A stretch of DNA of 35,715 nucleotides. Source: Ichthyobacteriaceae bacterium. Its GTDB lineage: Bacteria > Bacteroidota > Bacteroidia > Flavobacteriales > JADGDT01. The DNA is taken from positions 50,506 to 86,220 of the forward strand of contig JADGDT010000001.1 in NCBI GenBank assembly GCA_016744755.1, written 5' to 3'. Below, piece by piece: positions 27,805 to 35,715 of the stretch. Positions within the stretch are counted from its first letter, which is position 1. Every line of letters begins with the position of its first letter. A program made the position numbers and the translations under genes. The notes under the pieces are model-generated. The model searched no databases. It was not told the DNA's origin and worked only from the letters and a program-made list of their open reading frames with translations.

Positions 27805-28572
27805 ATGATTCTAACAGATACACATACTCACCTCTATTCAGAGCAGTTTGACGAAGATAGAGATGAGGTAATAAAAAGAGCTATTGATGCAGGAATAAGC
27901 AGATTGTTTATGCCAGCGATAGATAGCGAATATACTGAGGCAATGTTAAAAGTAGAGTCTCAGTATCATGATAATTGTTTTGCCATGATGGGATTACACC
28001 CTACATCGGTTAAGGATAATTGGGAAGAAGAATTGAAACATGTTGAAGATTGGCTTAACAAAAGAGATTTTGTAGCTATAGGAGAGATAGGAATCGATTT
28101 GTATTGGGATAAGACTTTCTTGGAACAGCAACAATTTGTTTTTCGTAAACAAATACATTGGGCTAAAGAAAGGGGATTGCCAATAATAATACATGCAAGA
28201 GATTCTTTCGATGAGATATTTGAAATACTGGAAGAAGAAAAAGGCGAAAAGTTAAGAGGTATTTTTCATTGCTTTACAGGAACGTTGGAACAAGCCAAGC
28301 AAGCAATTTCGTATAACATGAAATTAGGTATTGGAGGAGTTGCAACCTTCAAAAATGGTAAGATTGATAAGTTTTTAAATGAGGTAGATTTAAAAAATAT
28401 TGTTCTAGAAACTGACTCTCCTTACCTAGCTCCAACACCTTTAAGAGGTAAACGAAATGAAAGTAGTTACCTATTAAAAGTTGCAGAGAGGCTATCTGAT
28501 ATCTACGAGGTTTCTGTAGAAGAGATTGCAGAGATTACAACTGCTAATTCAAAGGAAGTTTTTGGGGTATAG
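27805..28572 (+). CDS. tatD: TatD family metal-dependent hydrolase
   Basis: This 255-residue amidohydrolase-fold enzyme is probably a 3'-5' DNase or D-aminoacyl-tRNA deacylase, as known for TatD proteins. The ATG at 27805 is chosen over an upstream TTG because it opens the family N-terminus ILTDTHTHLYSEQFDEDRDEV with the metal-binding HTH (DTHTHL). Other motifs are MMGLHPTSV, AIGEIGIDLYWD with the bridging Glu, IIHARDSFDE, GIFHCFTGTLEQA and ETDSPYLAPTPLRGKRNES. It is set between leuB and ilvB without functional connection to the pathway. Confidence 0.94.
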   Translation: MILTDTHTHLYSEQFDEDRDEVIKRAIDAGISRLFMPAIDSEYTEAMLKVESQYHDNCFAMMGLHPTSVKDNWEEELKHVEDWLNKRDFVAIGEIGIDLYWDKTFLEQQQFVFRKQIHWAKERGLPIIIHARDSFDEIFEILEEEKGEKLRGIFHCFTGTLEQAKQAISYNMKLGIGGVATFKNGKIDKFLNEVDLKNIVLETDSPYLAPTPLRGKRNESSYLLKVAERLSDIYEVSVEEIAEITTANSKEVFGV

Positions 28573-28792
28573 AAATTATAATCTGTCAACAGTTTTAATA
28601 AAAAACTATCATTTTATTGAAAATAGAAAGCAAAGTATAACAACCCTAAAGTATTTATCGGAAAACGATTTAAAGTTTATATATTTACACTTGTAAAGTT
28701 GTTAAAGTGATAGCATCATATTGGAGGAGTCCAATAAGGTGCGAAAAACTAAAAAGCCGTTCGAAAGAGCGGCTTTTTCAAAAACAAAAATT
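28573..28792. other. tatD-ilvB gap, first part: promoter region and upstream hairpins
   Basis: No gene is seen here. TATATTTA at 28680-28687 is close to the TAnnTTTG -7 box and could start the ilv leader transcript. Two hairpins follow and are described separately. The remainder of the gap holds the attenuator. Confidence 0.5.
28720..28778 (+). terminator. Two hairpins ahead of the ilv leader ORF; the second terminator-like
   Basis: ATTGGA/TCCAAT (28720-28725 with 28730-28735) forms a small stem. A 12-bp stem with a GAAA tetraloop (28751-28762 with 28767-28778, one wobble) starts with AAAAAGCC and ends with GGCTTTTT. It may end the tatD transcript, or belong to the leader RNA since its foot lies 14 bases before the leader ATG. 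Confidence 0.7.
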
Positions 28793-28855
28793 ATGAAATC
28801 AATTAATACTATTACTAATGTCATTATTCTTCTTCTGAAATACCAGATGAGGTAG
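28793..28855 (+). CDS. ilvL: ilv leader peptide with regulatory Val-Ile-Ile-Leu-Leu-Leu codons
   Basis: A 20-codon ORF runs from ATG 28793 to TAG 28853-28855. Its translation includes INTITNVIILLL, with the branched-chain residues at codons 4, 7 and 10-15: Ile, Ile, Val, Ile, Ile, Leu, Leu, Leu. All eight are amino acids made by the downstream pathway. This composition, the length, the position ahead of a terminator, and the placement of the stop codon inside the antiterminator strand are the marks of an attenuation leader. Scarcity of charged Ile, Val or Leu tRNA would stall the ribosome on codons 10-15. The gene name is by analogy with enterobacterial ilvL and does not imply homology. Confidence 0.82.
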   Translation: MKSINTITNVIILLLKYQMR

Positions 28856-28916
28856 ATTGTGTATAACTAATAGTTAACTAAAATCCTTTCTCATCAGTGT
28901 GAAAGGATTTTTTTTT
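28832..28916 (+). promoter_or_regulatory. Transcription attenuator of ilvBNC
   Basis: Four segments can form rival pairs. Segment 1, TCTG (28834-28837) in the Leu codons, pairs with CAGA (28844-28847). Segment 2, GATGAG (28846-28851) plus GATT (28855-28858), pairs with segment 3, CTCATC (28890-28895) plus AATC (28882-28885), forming an antiterminator. Segment 3 with 4 is the terminator: a 10-bp stem, 28881-28890 with 28901-28910, then Ts to 28916. A ribosome stalled on the Ile/Leu codons blocks segment 1, frees segment 2 and allows read-through. A ribosome reaching the stop codon (28853) covers segment 2 and termination follows. Confidence 0.8.
28881..28916 (+). terminator. Terminator arm of the ilv attenuator
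   Basis: A perfect 10-bp stem AAATCCTTTC/GAAAGGATTT with a 10-base loop is followed by a T run (nine Ts at 28908-28916). It lies 81 bases upstream of ilvB. Confidence 0.92.
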
Positions 28917-28997
28917 GGAATAAAATATTTTGATTGTTAATGAACATAATCTATTAATAGTCAAAAAAAACAATAATAATTTAAACAAAATCTTACA

Positions 28998-30734
28998 ATG
29001 GAAGCGGTAAGTAAACAAAAGGAGGAGTCTATCAAATCCGAGACAACAACAATGAGTGGTTCAGATGCCATTATTCAGTCGTTGATTGACGAGGGAGTTG
29101 ACTACATATTTGGTTACCCAGGGGGTGCTAATATGCCTATGTACGATTCTCTACACCAAATGGGAGAAGATAAAATCAAACATATTCTTGCACGTCACGA
29201 GCAAGGAGCAATACACTCAGCTCAAGGTTATGCGCGTAGTTCAGGAAAAACTGGTGTCGTCTTTGCTACTTCCGGTCCTGGTGCTACAAACATTATTACA
29301 GGAATTGCAGATGCTTATTTAGATTCAACACCTTTGGTTTGTATTACGGGTCAAGTTAATGCTTCATTATTGGGATCTGATGCTTTTCAGGAAACAGATA
29401 TTACAGGTGTAACTTCTCCTGTTACTAAATGGAATTATCAGCTAACAAAAGAAGATGAGATTTTAGAAATTCTTGCTAAGGCATTTTATATTGCAGGTAG
29501 TGGTCGTCCTGGTCCTGTTCTTATTGATATATCTAAGGATATTCAGTTTAAAGATGTCGAGTACGCTTTCGAGAAATGTAGCTATGTAAAGAGTTATATT
29601 GCTTTACCTGAACCAGAAACAGAGGAAATTAAGGAAGCTGCCAAAGCAATAAACAACGCTAAAAAACCTATGATTATTTATGGGCAAGGTGTTATTTTGA
29701 GTGGAGCAGAAAAAGAGCTTAAAGAGTTAGTTGAAAAAGCAGATATTCCTGCGGCAAATACTCTTTTGGGTATTTCTGCTTTAGAAACTGATCATCCTAA
29801 TGCTGTAGGTATGGTAGGTATGCATGGTAATTATGCTCCCAACTTAAAGACAAATGAATGTGATGTACTTATTGCTATAGGTATGCGTTTCGACGATAGA
29901 ATTACTGGCGATTTGAACCAGTACGCTAAGCAAGCCAACATTATTCATTTTGATATTGATAAATCGGAATTTCATAAAAATATAAAAGCTAACATTGCTG
30001 TACTTGGCGATGCTAAAGAAACTCTTAGAGCAACACTAAAATTAATAGAAAAGAACAATCACGAATCTTGGAAACAAGAATTTGCAGATTTAGAAGCTAT
30101 AGAAAAGAAAGAAATTTGGGATGAAATTTTACATCCAACTGAAGGCGATATTACTATGGCAGAGGTTGTGAGAAAAGTTTCGGAATTAACAAATAACGAA
30201 GCAATTGTTGTAACTGATGTAGGTCAGCACCAAATGTTTGCTTGCCGTTACAGTAAATTTAAGAATACTAAATCATTTATTTCTTCTGGAGGACTAGGTA
30301 CAATGGGTTTTGGATTGCCAGCAGCAATAGGAGCAAAACTTGGAGCGCCCGAAAAAACTGTTGTTAGTTTCTCTGGCGATGGAGGTTTCCAAATGACTAT
30401 GCAAGAGCTAGGAATTATTATGGAATATGGAATTAATGTGAAAGTAATAATTCTTAATAATGGTTTCTTAGGAATGGTACGTCAATGGCAAGATTTATTC
30501 TTCGATAAGCGTTATGCTTCAACCCCTATGCAAAGTCCTGATTTCGGAAAAATAACAGAGGCTTACGGTATAGAGTACAAAAAAGTAACTGAACGTAGTA
30601 ATCTAGTAGATACCTTAAAAGAAATGCTAGATCACGATGGTTCTTTCGTACTTGAAGTTAAGGTAAAAGAAGAATTAAATGTGTTCCCGATGATACCAGG
30701 TGGAGCACCAGTAACTGATGTAAGATTAAAATAG
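28998..30734 (+). CDS. ilvB: Acetolactate synthase, large catalytic subunit
   Basis: IlvB uses thiamine diphosphate and FAD to join two pyruvates, or pyruvate and 2-ketobutyrate. The 578 residues have the three ThDP-enzyme domains: catalytic Glu68 in ARHEQGA with GYPGGANMPMYD before it, the central FAD region with MHGNYA and RFDDRITG (about 275-304), and the ThDP-binding motif from GDGGFQMTMQ to ILNN (460-488). The first 18 residues are a polar extension; Met19 is a possible alternative start. It is the first structural gene after the attenuator and is followed by ilvN. Confidence 0.96.
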   Translation: MEAVSKQKEESIKSETTTMSGSDAIIQSLIDEGVDYIFGYPGGANMPMYDSLHQMGEDKIKHILARHEQGAIHSAQGYARSSGKTGVVFATSGPGATNIITGIADAYLDSTPLVCITGQVNASLLGSDAFQETDITGVTSPVTKWNYQLTKEDEILEILAKAFYIAGSGRPGPVLIDISKDIQFKDVEYAFEKCSYVKSYIALPEPETEEIKEAAKAINNAKKPMIIYGQGVILSGAEKELKELVEKADIPAANTLLGISALETDHPNAVGMVGMHGNYAPNLKTNECDVLIAIGMRFDDRITGDLNQYAKQANIIHFDIDKSEFHKNIKANIAVLGDAKETLRATLKLIEKNNHESWKQEFADLEAIEKKEIWDEILHPTEGDITMAEVVRKVSELTNNEAIVVTDVGQHQMFACRYSKFKNTKSFISSGGLGTMGFGLPAAIGAKLGAPEKTVVSFSGDGGFQMTMQELGIIMEYGINVKVIILNNGFLGMVRQWQDLFFDKRYASTPMQSPDFGKITEAYGIEYKKVTERSNLVDTLKEMLDHDGSFVLEVKVKEELNVFPMIPGGAPVTDVRLK

Positions 30735-30799: not shown

Positions 30800-31351
30800 A
30801 TGGAACAAGAAAAAGAATATACCCTATTTGTTTATTCCGAAAATCACATCGGAATATTGGGAAGGATAACAAATACTTTTACTCAAAGACACTTAAATAT
30901 CGAGAGTCTTACAGTATCAGAATCAGAAGTTAGTGGGGTATTTCGTTTTACGATTGTAACAATCAGTAGTCCTTCAATTATAAAATTGATTTCTAAAAGA
31001 ATAGAACGTCAGATTGATGTAATAAAATCTGGTTTTTTCTGTAGCGAAGATATTGTACACCAAGAAGTAGCTATGTACAAACTTTCTACCGAAGTACTTA
31101 TTGATGGGTTATCTATTGAAAAGATAATGCGTAAACACAATGCAAGTATTCTTGCTGTAGAGAAAGAATATTTTGTAATAGAAAAAACAGGACACAAAAG
31201 CGAAACACAAGCCTTGTTCGAAGAACTTAGAATTTTTGGTGTTTTCGAATTTGTACGTTCTGGTAGAATTGCAATTTCTAAACCAATGATATCTTTTCAA
31301 GATGCATTGAAAGAGGTAGCTGAAGGAGCTAAGAAGCAGAAAATATCTTAG
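30800..31351 (+). CDS. ilvN: Acetolactate synthase, small regulatory subunit
   Basis: The small subunit activates IlvB and normally confers valine feedback inhibition. The 183 residues begin with an ACT domain (TLFVYSENHIGILGRITNTFTQRHLNIESLTVSES, about 8-42, then VFRFTIVT). The middle VDIVHQEVAMYKLS-like part (IVHQEVAMYKL, 84-94) and the C-terminal domain (about 98-175) with VIEKTGHKSETQALFEELRIFGVFEFVRSGRIAISK fit full-length IlvH-type subunits. It follows ilvB after 65 bases that contain repeats, and precedes ilvC after a longer repeat array. Confidence 0.94.
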   Translation: MEQEKEYTLFVYSENHIGILGRITNTFTQRHLNIESLTVSESEVSGVFRFTIVTISSPSIIKLISKRIERQIDVIKSGFFCSEDIVHQEVAMYKLSTEVLIDGLSIEKIMRKHNASILAVEKEYFVIEKTGHKSETQALFEELRIFGVFEFVRSGRIAISKPMISFQDALKEVAEGAKKQKIS

Positions 31352-31581: not shown

Positions 31582-33063
31582 ATGGCAAATTATTTTAACA
31601 CACTTCCGTTACGCGATCAATTAAAACAATTGGGAACTTGTGATTTCATGGACAATTCGGAATTCGCAAATGGTGTAGAGAAGCTTAAAGGTAAAAAAAT
31701 AGTAATTGTAGGCTGTGGTGCTCAAGGGTTAAACCAAGGTCTTAACATGCGCGATTCTGGATTAGATATTTCTTACACTTTGCGTGCAGGCGCTATCAAA
31801 GAAAAGCGTCAGTCTTACTTAAATGCAACTGAGAATAATTTTGCAGTAAGTACTTACGAAGAAATGATTCCTAGTGCTGATTTGGTAATCAATCTTACTC
31901 CAGACAAGCAACACACAAATGTTGTAACTGCAGTTATGCCATTGATGAAAAAAGGAGCTACACTTTCTTATTCTCACGGTTTTAACATCGTAGAAGAAGG
32001 AATGCAAGTTCGTAAAGATATCACAGTAATTATGGTTGCTCCAAAATCGCCAGGTTCCGAGGTTCGTGAGGAGTACAAACGTGGTTTTGGTGTACCAACC
32101 CTAATTGCTGTTCATCCTGAGAATGACCCTCAAGGAGATGGTTTCGAAATTGCTAAAGCTTACTGTGTAGCAACTGGTGGACATACTGCCGGAGTTATTG
32201 CTTCATCTTTTGTAGCTGAAGTTAAGTCGGATCTTATGGGCGAGCAAACAATACTTTGTGGTTTATTACAAACTGGTGCAATCCTTTCTTTCGACAAAAT
32301 GGTTGAAAAAGGAATTGAGGCTGGTTATGCATCAAAATTAATTCAGTACGGATGGGAAACTGTTACCGAAGCTCTTAAACATGGTGGTATCACTAACATG
32401 ATGGATAGACTTTCTAACCCTGCTAAAATTGAAGCTTTCAATATTTCGGAAGAATTAAAAGTAATTATGCGTCCGCTTTTCAACAAGCATATGGATGATA
32501 TTATTTCTGGAGAATTCTCGAAAGTAATGATGGAAGATTGGGCTAACGACGATAAAAACCTTCTTGGATGGAGAGCTGCTACAGAAAACACAGCATTTGA
32601 AAAACAAGAAAATACAGCACAAGAGATTTCAGAACAAGAGTATTTCGATAATGGAGTTCTTTTAGTTGCTTTTGTAAAAGCAGGTGTTGAGTTAGCATTC
32701 GAAGCTATGGTTGAAGCTGGTATCAAACCAGAATCTGCATACTACGAGTCGTTACACGAAACTCCATTAATTGCAAATACAATAGCACGTAAGAAACTTT
32801 ACGAAATGAACCGTATTATTTCTGATACTGCTGAGTACGGAACATACCTGTTCGATCATGCTGCACAACCATTATTGGCCAATTTCATGAAAGGAGTTGA
32901 GCTTAACATAATCGGTAAGAAATACGAATCTGCTGATAACGGAGTTGATAACCAAGAACTAATCGCTGTAAACAAAGCAATACGTTCTCACGGAGTAGAG
33001 CAAATTGGAGAAGTTCTTCGTGGCGCAATGACGAATATGAAAAAAGTTGCTACTGAAGCATAA
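31582..33063 (+). CDS. ilvC: Ketol-acid reductoisomerase, class II
   Basis: IlvC isomerises and reduces acetolactate or acetohydroxybutyrate with NADPH and Mg2+. At 493 residues it is the long class II form as in E. coli. The Rossmann motif [11 protein letters not shown] lies at 43-53, and the NADPH-selecting loop [12 protein letters not shown] has Arg68, Arg76 and Ser78 as in E. coli, so NADPH use is expected. [18 protein letters not shown] marks the acid-binding region, and the C-terminal all-helical knotted domain is duplicated as usual ([12 protein letters not shown] and later [16 protein letters not shown]). A strong terminator follows. Confidence 0.96.
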
Positions 33064-33265: not shown

Positions 33266-33337
33266 AGTTGGATAAATAGAAAAATAGAATCTTTTTTTGA
33301 TTCTAATTTTTCTATTTTCAAGACAACTGCAAGGGGA
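33256..33337. repeat. Long stem-loop preceding the tandem repeats
   Basis: TCCC (33256-33259), GCAGTTG (33264-33270) and an 18-base arm (33274-33291) pair with GGGA (33334-33337), CAACTGC (33324-33330) and 33299-33317 respectively, giving a stem of about 29 bp around a T-rich loop. Confidence 0.8.
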
Positions 33338-33541
33338 AGTGAAACAATCCCTACCGCTTTTCAAACAGTCATCCGCTCGCTATCACCGTTGTGAAGATAG
33401 CGAGCGGATGACTAGAATTTTTCTTTTCATTTTAGTATTTTCAAGACAGTTGCAAGGGGATGTGAAACAATCCCTACCACTTTTCAAACAGTCACCCGCT
33501 CGCTATCACCGTTGTGAGGATAGCAAGCGGATGACTAGAAT
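33314..33541. repeat. Two 105-base direct repeats with a 123-base period, each with a large hairpin
   Basis: Copies at 33314-33418 and 33437-33541 agree at 98 of 105 positions by hand alignment. Copy 1 carries a perfect 18-bp stem (33367-33384 with 33396-33413) around an 11-base loop. Copy 2 has two mismatches in the same stem. The period is a multiple of three, which leaves an 88-codon frame open across both, but I regard it as non-coding. Confidence 0.92.
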
Positions 33542-33559
33542 ACATATATATGACACGGC

Positions 33560-33590
33560 TTAAGTAGTTTACCCTAAAAAAACTACTTAA
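33560..33590. repeat. Perfect 11-bp hairpin upstream of the surface protein
   Basis: TTAAGTAGTTT (33560-33570) pairs with AAACTACTTAA (33580-33590) around a nine-base loop, 70 bases before the TTG start. It could be a terminator fragment or leader hairpin. Confidence 0.7.
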
Positions 33591-33659: not shown

Positions 33660-35715
33660 TTGATAAAAAAATCATTACTCTTTGCTTTGGCAATATTGCT
33701 AGCAGGCACTACCCATGCCCAATACACACTTACCGACGACGATGTTGTTGTAGAAGGTGGAGTATTAAAAGAATACACAAATTCAACAGAGAAAAACATA
33801 ATTATCCCCCAAACTTTAGATGGGCAAACTGTAACTGTTCTTGGAGAAGCTGTTTTCTATTCAAAATATATGACAGGTGTTGTAATTCCTAATACCGTAA
33901 CATCTATCGAGTATAGGGCTTTTAATCAAAATAAATTAACAAGTGTTATTATTCCAACTTCAGTTACAAACATTGGTAAAACTGCATTTAAGGGCAACAA
34001 ACTTACAAGCATCACTTTACATAACACTGTTACTTCAATAGGAGAAGCAGCATTTAATGGAAATTCAATTGTTACAATAAATGGAGAAGCATTTGATGGT
34101 ATTTTCTATAAGAGGAACATGGATGGCTCGGAAGATAATAGCACTATTGTTTCTTATGGAGGATCTTCAAGAACACTTAACTTTATACCAAGTTATGTTA
34201 CAACTATTGGGAATAAGGCTTTTGAATCTTGTAGTCTTACAAGTGTTATCATACCCAATACTGTTACATCACTAGGAGAATATGCATTTGGATATAATAA
34301 TATTACAATTGCAACTTTATCTAATTCAATTACTGTTTTACCTACTGGAATTTTTACTAGTAATAAATTATTAAGTATTTCTATTCCAAGTAGCGTTACT
34401 GAAATTGGCTATCATGCTTTTTACCGTAATCAATTGTCAAGTATTACATTTCCTAACTCAGTAACTACTATAGGAACTTACTCATTTGCATACAATAATT
34501 TTACTAGCTTAACTTTTCCTAATTCGGTTACTGAAATTAAGTCATTTGCATTTATGTCAAATAAGTTAACAAGTGTTACGCTACCAAATGCAATAACAAG
34601 AATAACACAATACTCCTTTGCATATAATGAATTAACGAATATAAATATACCTGCCTCCGTTACTTATATCGAAAGAAGTTCATTACGTAATAATAAATTA
34701 ATTAGTGTTGTTATACCTAATTCTGTTACCGGAATTGGAGATGAAGCGTTTGTAAATAATAAAATTACTAGTCTTGATATGCCTAGTTCAGTCACTAATT
34801 TAGGAGAAGCTGTATTTAATGGCAATAGTATTAACTTGATTAATGGTGAATCATCAGATGGAATTGTTTTTGGAAGAAATTCTGATGGATCAGATGATTT
34901 AACTAAGATTGTGGCTTACGGTGGAGTTGCTAAAGTCATTGATTTTATTCCAACTTCAGTTAAAATCATTGATGATAAAGCATTTTATGATAATGAATTT
35001 CGTATGGATATAACCAGCGTAACTCTACCAAACTCAATAACTACTATTGGACGTAGTGCTTTTAGCTACAATAAACTTACTAGTATTATTATTCCTACGT
35101 CAGTTACTGAAATTGATTATGGGGCATTTGTAAATAATGAACTTACAGGTTTTATATTGCCTGCGGCTGAAAAATCGGGTTATTTATTTGAAAACTGGAA
35201 TGGAGATATTGCAGCAAATACCGAAATAACAGGGCTTTGGGCAAAATATACTGCAAATTTCAGTAAGATATATATCGACCAAACTATTGAATTCGAAGCA
35301 CTAAGTAATGCTACTTATGGAGGAGATAACATTGAATTAACAGCAACTTCAAGCAGTAGACTAGACGTATCTTATTCTTCTAGCAATACTCAAATTGCAA
35401 GTATAGTTAATGGTGAAATTGTAATTAAAAAAGCTGGCACTTGTAATATAACGGCTAGTCAATCTGGAAATGGAACATACAACCCTGCTGAAGATGTAGT
35501 ACGATCATTTGTTGTAAATAAAAAAGGAATAAGCGTAACAGCCAATGCAGGTCAAACAAAAGTTTACGGCGATGCCGAACCAATTTTAACTTATATTGCC
35601 GATGCACTTGTGGGAGGTGATATTTTTACTGGAGAATTAGGTAGAGAAGAAGGTGAAGAAGTAGGTTTCTATGAAATTATGATTGGTAATTTAAGTGCTG
35701 GTAATAATTATAATT
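33660..35715 (+). CDS. BspA-like leucine-rich-repeat surface protein with MBG domain, 3' end outside window
   Basis: I start this at TTG 33660-33662, since no in-frame ATG precedes the signal peptide (IKKSLLFALAILLAGTTHAQ); about 685 residues are visible. Residues about 60-490 hold some 16 LRR_5 repeats of 22 residues (LTSVIIPNTVTSIGEYAF type) with two matching inserts (NGEAFDGIFYKRN and NGESSDGIVFGRN). Then come an InlB-type repeat (GYLFENWNG), an Ig-like segment (IEFEALSNATYGGDNIELTATSSS region) and an MBG domain (SVTANAGQTKVYGDAEP). Such proteins bind host or extracellular ligands and are usually exported by T9SS; a sorting domain would lie beyond the edge. Confidence 0.88.
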   Translation, partial: MIKKSLLFALAILLAGTTHAQYTLTDDDVVVEGGVLKEYTNSTEKNIIIPQTLDGQTVTVLGEAVFYSKYMTGVVIPNTVTSIEYRAFNQNKLTSVIIPTSVTNIGKTAFKGNKLTSITLHNTVTSIGEAAFNGNSIVTINGEAFDGIFYKRNMDGSEDNSTIVSYGGSSRTLNFIPSYVTTIGNKAFESCSLTSVIIPNTVTSLGEYAFGYNNITIATLSNSITVLPTGIFTSNKLLSISIPSSVTEIGYHAFYRNQLSSITFPNSVTTIGTYSFAYNNFTSLTFPNSVTEIKSFAFMSNKLTSVTLPNAITRITQYSFAYNELTNINIPASVTYIERSSLRNNKLISVVIPNSVTGIGDEAFVNNKITSLDMPSSVTNLGEAVFNGNSINLINGESSDGIVFGRNSDGSDDLTKIVAYGGVAKVIDFIPTSVKIIDDKAFYDNEFRMDITSVTLPNSITTIGRSAFSYNKLTSIIIPTSVTEIDYGAFVNNELTGFILPAAEKSGYLFENWNGDIAANTEITGLWAKYTANFSKIYIDQTIEFEALSNATYGGDNIELTATSSSRLDVSYSSSNTQIASIVNGEIVIKKAGTCNITASQSGNGTYNPAEDVVRSFVVNKKGISVTANAGQTKVYGDAEPILTYIADALVGGDIFTGELGREEGEEVGFYEIMIGNLSAGNNYN

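Follow-up and report, generated by a model that had tools for sequence, protein, structure and literature searches.

A Predicted Leader-Peptide Attenuator in Front of ilvBNC

The region upstream of ilvB in the analyzed window (the whole stretch of 35,715 nt) very probably contains a ribosome-mediated (leader-peptide) transcription attenuator of the ilv/his/leu type. The anatomy of this leader, its conservation, the coevolution of its 2:3 pairing at the class level and its folding states in silico were observed. The best named matches of the genome belonged to the Flavobacteriaceae (Bacteroidota), and the family sample comprised three genomes. The operon was located on the forward strand and comprised ilvB for the large subunit of acetolactate synthase (28998-30734; NCBIfam TIGR00118, 723 bits), ilvN for the small subunit (30800-31351; NCBIfam TIGR00119, above cut-off) and ilvC for ketol-acid reductoisomerase (31582-33063; NCBIfam NF003557, 914 bits). 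Upstream, leuA, leuB and a tatD-like gene were arranged on the same strand, and both the leader open reading frame (ORF) and the terminator lay in the intergenic stretch that separates ilvB from the tatD-like gene. No leader and terminator were seen upstream of leuA, and no leader upstream of ilvD in the family of the window, where ilvD was located on a separate contig.

Downstream of ilvC, an ORF composed of a repeated unit (FSRQLQGxVKQSLPLFKQSxARYHRCEDSxRMTRI) was found at 33297-33563, and it resembled repetitive intergenic DNA that happens to form an open frame. The 5' part of a large secreted-looking protein with leucine-rich repeats, named BspA-like by sequence appearance only, occupied 33660-35714 and ran past the end of the window.

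Anatomy of the Leader

The leader ORF (MKSINTITNVIILLLKYQMR, 28793-28855, forward strand) started with ATG at 28793 and ended with TAG at 28853-28855. The first-pass annotation had described it as a 20-codon ORF with the run Val-Ile-Ile-Leu-Leu-Leu and with its stop codon inside a segment able to pair downstream, and direct reading of the sequence confirmed this. The control codons (GTC ATT ATT CTT CTT CTG) occupied 28820-28837. No Shine-Dalgarno sequence was found ahead of the ORF, which is normal in the Bacteroidota (PMC6847099). Region 1 (28829-28837) was followed by region 2 (28844-28858), which included the stop codon and was an alternative partner to regions 1 and 3 on the evidence of folding, of a congeneric genome and of a partner-swap test. 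A small hairpin was present in the spacer between regions 2 and 3 (28861-28878). Region 3 (28880-28895) consisted of the 5' arm of the terminator and the edge of its loop, and duplex statistics and folding identified it as the antiterminator partner. The intrinsic terminator (3:4, 28880-28916) was made up of AAAATCCTTTC-TCATCAGTGT-GAAAGGATTTT (28880-28911), which formed an 11-bp stem, and of a T-run that ended at 28916. It was detected by folding and by a custom scan, and it was missed by a generic terminator scan because its loop is long.

The segment 28846-28858 of region 2 was complementary to the terminator arm and loop at 28882-28895. The coordinates previously given for the matching segments, GATGAG (28846-28851) and GATT (28855-28858) on one side and CTCATC (28890-28895) and AATC (28882-28885) on the other, were all correct. 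The antiterminator covered both arm and loop as proposed; however, folding engaged six bases of the arm (28882-28885 and 28889-28890) instead of the four that had been claimed. Similarly, the pairing of TCTG (28834-28837) with CAGA (28844-28847) was present where it had been placed, but it was only part of the 1:2 helix, in which CUUC (28829-28832) also paired with GAGG (28849-28852) upon folding (-7.7 kcal/mol). The statistics of the window alone were modest. The fold z-score of 28780-28930 was -2.3, and the 2:3 complementarity compared with dinucleotide shuffles (p = 0.065) was only suggestive.

Conservation in a Congener

A second genome of the same genus (G002), whose ilvB was 78% identical, carried MLRFDIISNVIILLRET in the same position as the leader of the window. 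The stretch GTCATTATTCTTCTT, which holds the VIILL codons, was identical in the two genomes, and GATGAGG-AGAT of region 2, the spacer hairpin ACTAATAGT and the terminator were conserved as well. The start of the ORF had diverged in G002, and its stop codon (TGA) was shifted yet still lay within region 2. The cores of regions 2 and 3 were identical in both congeners, and therefore covariation of the 2:3 pairing was visible only at the class level. Another match to the leader within the genome of the window (G000:C57:17484-17528) was located beside a cytochrome-oxidase-like gene, lacked the combination of leader and terminator, and was taken as chance.

Survey of ilv Loci in the Bacteroidia

The survey comprised the ilv upstream DNA of 134 Bacteroidia loci (426 kb), taken from named Flavobacteriales and from further genomes of the order and class. 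The rule required an ATG-initiated ORF 10-40 codons long and holding five or more Ile, Leu or Val within seven residues, with its end between 8 nt inside and 75 nt ahead of a terminator. Such pairs of leader ORF and terminator were found 93 times on the sense strand versus four times on the reverse strand; one of the 93 sites (L036) looked spurious and was excluded from later tests. Positive loci numbered two of two in the family of the window, 65 of 105 in other Flavobacteriales and 14 of 27 among Bacteroidia outside that order, counts that come from phylogenetically non-independent loci and from collections which may share a few genomes. The leaders were rich in Ile and Val, which together made up 42% of their residues, and they were placed like the leader of the window. 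The distance from stop codon to terminator was 19-47 nt (median 25.5), and region 2 surrounded the stop codon at all 93 sites. The expectation that homologous upstream regions would retain a short ORF with Ile/Val/Leu codons was thus borne out both in the congener and in the wider survey, and the strand asymmetry lifts the predicted attenuator of the window above chance.

Two units of leader and terminator in series were observed ahead of the ilv operon in 11 loci (L039, L045, L046, L051, L071, L081, L120, L121, L131, L154, and L170). The second leader of L131 was a near-exact repeat of the first (IIIISIIIRSFE), which suggests a recent tandem duplication. In the leaders, 52% of the Val codons were GTC, whereas the share in ilvB at these loci was 9%. 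GTC was the most common leader Val codon in each sequence class, and GTCATT/C was found in frame in 59 of the 93 leaders. This enrichment may reflect either the choice of a sensitive control codon or a constraint on the RNA. The theory of control-codon sensitivity has been treated elsewhere (PMC1183508). Upstream of ilvD in two reduced genomes of about 0.6 Mb from the same order (L122 and L123), no leader attenuator was found.

Coevolution of the 2:3 Pairing

For each site, the best duplex between the surroundings of the stop codon and the 5' arm plus loop of the terminator was determined. Complementarity exceeded that of shuffled sequences with p < 0.05 at 61 of 93 sites and with p < 0.01 at 25. 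The combined p over sites was 1.8e-54, a value which overstates the significance because the sites share descent. In the swap test, the partner of each site was compared with the partners of other sites in 5000 permutations. Cognate duplexes averaged -12.9 kcal/mol versus -8.7 kcal/mol for non-cognate ones (z = -14.6), and none of the permutations was as good. By sequence class, z was -7.8 in class C, to which the window belongs, -5.4 in class A and -2.1 in class B, whose sequence is near-invariant. The covariation that had been named as a check on the pairing was therefore present at the class level and within the class of the window. Individually, the cognate duplex of the window was among the top 12% of swaps; that of G002 was not better than swapped duplexes (rank 0.42). 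The partner pairs included GATGAGG/CTCATC in the window, TGATACAG/CTGTATCA in many Flavobacteriaceae, and GGAAG/CTTCC, TGTGAGA/TCTCACA and GGTGAGGCAC/GTGCCTCA elsewhere.

The modest statistics of the window alone (z = -2.3; p = 0.065) would agree with a random short ORF in AT-rich intergenic DNA that happened to lie next to a terminator belonging to some transcript from upstream. The leader homolog in G002, the asymmetry of 93 versus four sites between strands and the swap test refuted this explanation, and we consider chance scarcely credible.

Folding States and Proposed Mechanism

The leader was folded under a ribosome mask, with an assumed footprint extending to P-site +15 and with the polymerase placed before region 4 was complete. 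When the A-site was at Ile11, Ile12, Leu13 or Leu14, the probability of the 2:3 hairpin was 1.00, and at Leu15 it was 0.75. With the ribosome at the stop codon, which masked region 2, it dropped to 0. Without a ribosome, the 2:3 and 1:2 hairpins had probabilities of 0.47 and 0.51, respectively, and the protector 1:2 overlapped the control codons. The mask folding thus reproduced the 1:2, 2:3 and 3:4 logic of enterobacterial attenuators, which had been proposed from the letters of the sequence. Once region 4 was complete, the probability of 3:4 was about 0.99, stalled states included, and the isolated energies of 2:3 and 3:4 were similar (-12.5 and -12.1 kcal/mol). Since 3:4 wins thermodynamically at that point, the switch must be kinetic.

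We therefore envisage the attenuator as follows. When charged Ile, Leu and Val tRNAs are plentiful, the ribosome would reach the stop codon at 28853 and mask region 2, the 3:4 terminator would form, and transcription would end near 28916. When the tRNA for Ile or Leu (possibly Val) is uncharged, the ribosome would stall on codons 11-14 and mask region 1. The nascent region 3 would then pair with region 2, the terminator would be delayed, and the polymerase would enter ilvBNC. For such a kinetic switch, the 2:3 hairpin would have to persist while the polymerase passes over the T-run. In the absence of translation, 1:2 and 2:3 would compete, and termination would be the likely default. Translation of the ORF, coupling of the ribosome to the polymerase, and a response to branched-chain amino-acid starvation are presumed here.

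A real terminator with fixed read-through, either unregulated or regulated without the ribosome, would account for the dominance of the complete 3:4 hairpin at equilibrium in all ribosome states. The leader might be only loosely sensed if coupling is weak in this phylum; no coupling data were found in the literature for the Bacteroidota, and no measurement of transcription-translation coupling for the Bacteroidia. However, fixed read-through leaves unexplained the conserved clusters of Ile/Val/Leu codons, a region 2 that encloses the stop codon at every one of the 93 sites, and the coevolution of the 2:3 pairing, and we regard it as unlikely. The mRNAs of Bacteroidia lack Shine-Dalgarno sites, and attenuation in this class bears on how transcription and translation are coupled: attenuators that work would require ribosomes to stay near the polymerase, on these leaders if not more widely.

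A Structured Element Upstream of the Leader

A second RNA element with a terminator of its own, which the first-pass annotation had missed, was found downstream of the apparent promoter and ahead of the leader ORF (28690-28778, forward strand; fold z = -7.6). It ended in the terminator hairpin T1 (28751-28778), and its homolog in G002 (L005:3433-3545, reverse strand) had a fold z of -4.9. The 28-nt 5' block (28690-28717) was identical in G002, and P1 (GCAUC/GGUGC) was invariant in the two genomes; the hairpins differed yet remained paired. In the family of the window, the ATG of the leader followed 13-22 nt past the element. The promoter-like sequence TATATTTA near 28682 was the only one noticed, and T1 sits between it and the leader. 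The interval that separates T1 from the leader is too short to hold a promoter, so the ilv transcript would have to pass through T1, either from a start near 28690 or by read-through from leuAB-tatD. The core of the element was absent from 294 other genomes of the class when up to two mismatches were allowed, and in a search over the order, the matches beyond the genus were limited to short pieces of terminators or promoters. The segment 28690-28750 was also considered as a degenerate first leader peptide; it contained no ATG, its frame was not conserved in G002, and this idea was rejected.

The element is a candidate sRNA or a candidate first switch. Here, two roles were weighed for it. The first is that the element and T1 provide the main control of ilv, in the manner of an sRNA or riboswitch, and that the leader peptide is secondary. 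The fold z-score, the compensatory changes in G002 and a location past the promoter-like site but ahead of the leader speak for this role. However, the element was confined to the family of the window whereas leader and terminator were class-wide, and control by the element and attenuation at the leader are not mutually exclusive; we judge it very improbable that the element is the main control. The other is that two unlike ilv regulators act in series, a structured RNA with a covarying hairpin and T1 followed by the ribosome-sensing attenuator. The first module would then act like a riboswitch, or it would be an sRNA that termination sets free, with some read-through into ilv. We put this forward tentatively, as a possibility less likely than its opposite. 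In some related genomes, the first position was occupied by a second Ile/Val leader-peptide attenuator. If two regulators do act in the window, this family would have exchanged that first module for a sensor of another kind.

A T-box or another described riboswitch class was considered for the ilvBNC leader itself, which is a terminator-bearing leader of an amino-acid operon. No Rfam family reached its gathering score in the window, and a relaxed search of 28570-29000 returned GibS, BTnc231, PyrR, rnk_leader and Phe_leader, all far below their cut-offs. Such an origin is exceedingly improbable.

A Similar Leader Upstream of hisG

Upstream of hisG in the genome of the window (L188:1328-1450), a His4 leader peptide (MLISRHHHHFYNLPQVS) was followed by a terminator. 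G002 carried the homologous MFFNHHHHFTTLLK with a terminator (L186, reverse strand). From its sequence, the hisG leader with its terminator is probably a his-operon attenuator, and therefore attenuation of this kind seems to serve more than one operon in this lineage.

Comparison with Known Attenuators

The enterobacterial ilvGMEDA, ivbL-ilvBN, leu and his operons are controlled by leader-peptide attenuators. The ilvBNC leader resembles them in its control codons, in a stop codon placed at region 2, in the mutually exclusive 1:2, 2:3 and 3:4 hairpins, and in a terminator before the first structural gene. It differs in having no Shine-Dalgarno sequence, in its shorter, AU-rich helices, and in a region 2 that pairs partly with the terminator loop. 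There is no sequence homology between them, and the likeness lies in layout and predicted folds. Candidate attenuators have reportedly been described in the Bacteroidetes/Chlorobi before. The conserved codons, the coevolving antiterminators and the tandem copies provide comparative evidence for widespread branched-chain amino-acid attenuation in the Bacteroidia.

In Flavobacterium psychrophilum, which belongs to the same order, leader-peptide attenuation at amino-acid operons was inferred from transcriptome mapping that gave "strong clues" (PMC9723704). There, too, leader peptides accompany structured 5' transcribed regions at amino-acid biosynthesis operons. An attenuator of this kind in this phylum was only in part a surprise; the case is less exceptional than claimed, as flavobacterial attenuation was already known as an inference and the window is a further example. 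The main text of that study contains no ilv family, 2:3 covariation, tandem copies or range (PMC9723704). The Bacteroid-trp motif (Rfam RF01692; PMC2864571) is likewise a candidate cis-regulatory RNA of the Bacteroidetes; it is linked to trp by name and not to ilv, and it had no match in the window.

The ilvBNC attenuator of Corynebacterium (PMC11857589, PMC10272879) concerns the same operon, and there a leader ORF and hairpins likewise precede ilvB. It belongs to another phylum and has another sequence, and it is supported by mutational experiments, whereas sequence and folding support that of the window. The tandem attenuators of Salmonella mgtCBR (PMC3641672) serve another operon and respond to a signal other than branched-chain amino acids, but they consist of two short ORFs and attenuators in series, as do the 11 tandem ilv loci of the Bacteroidia.
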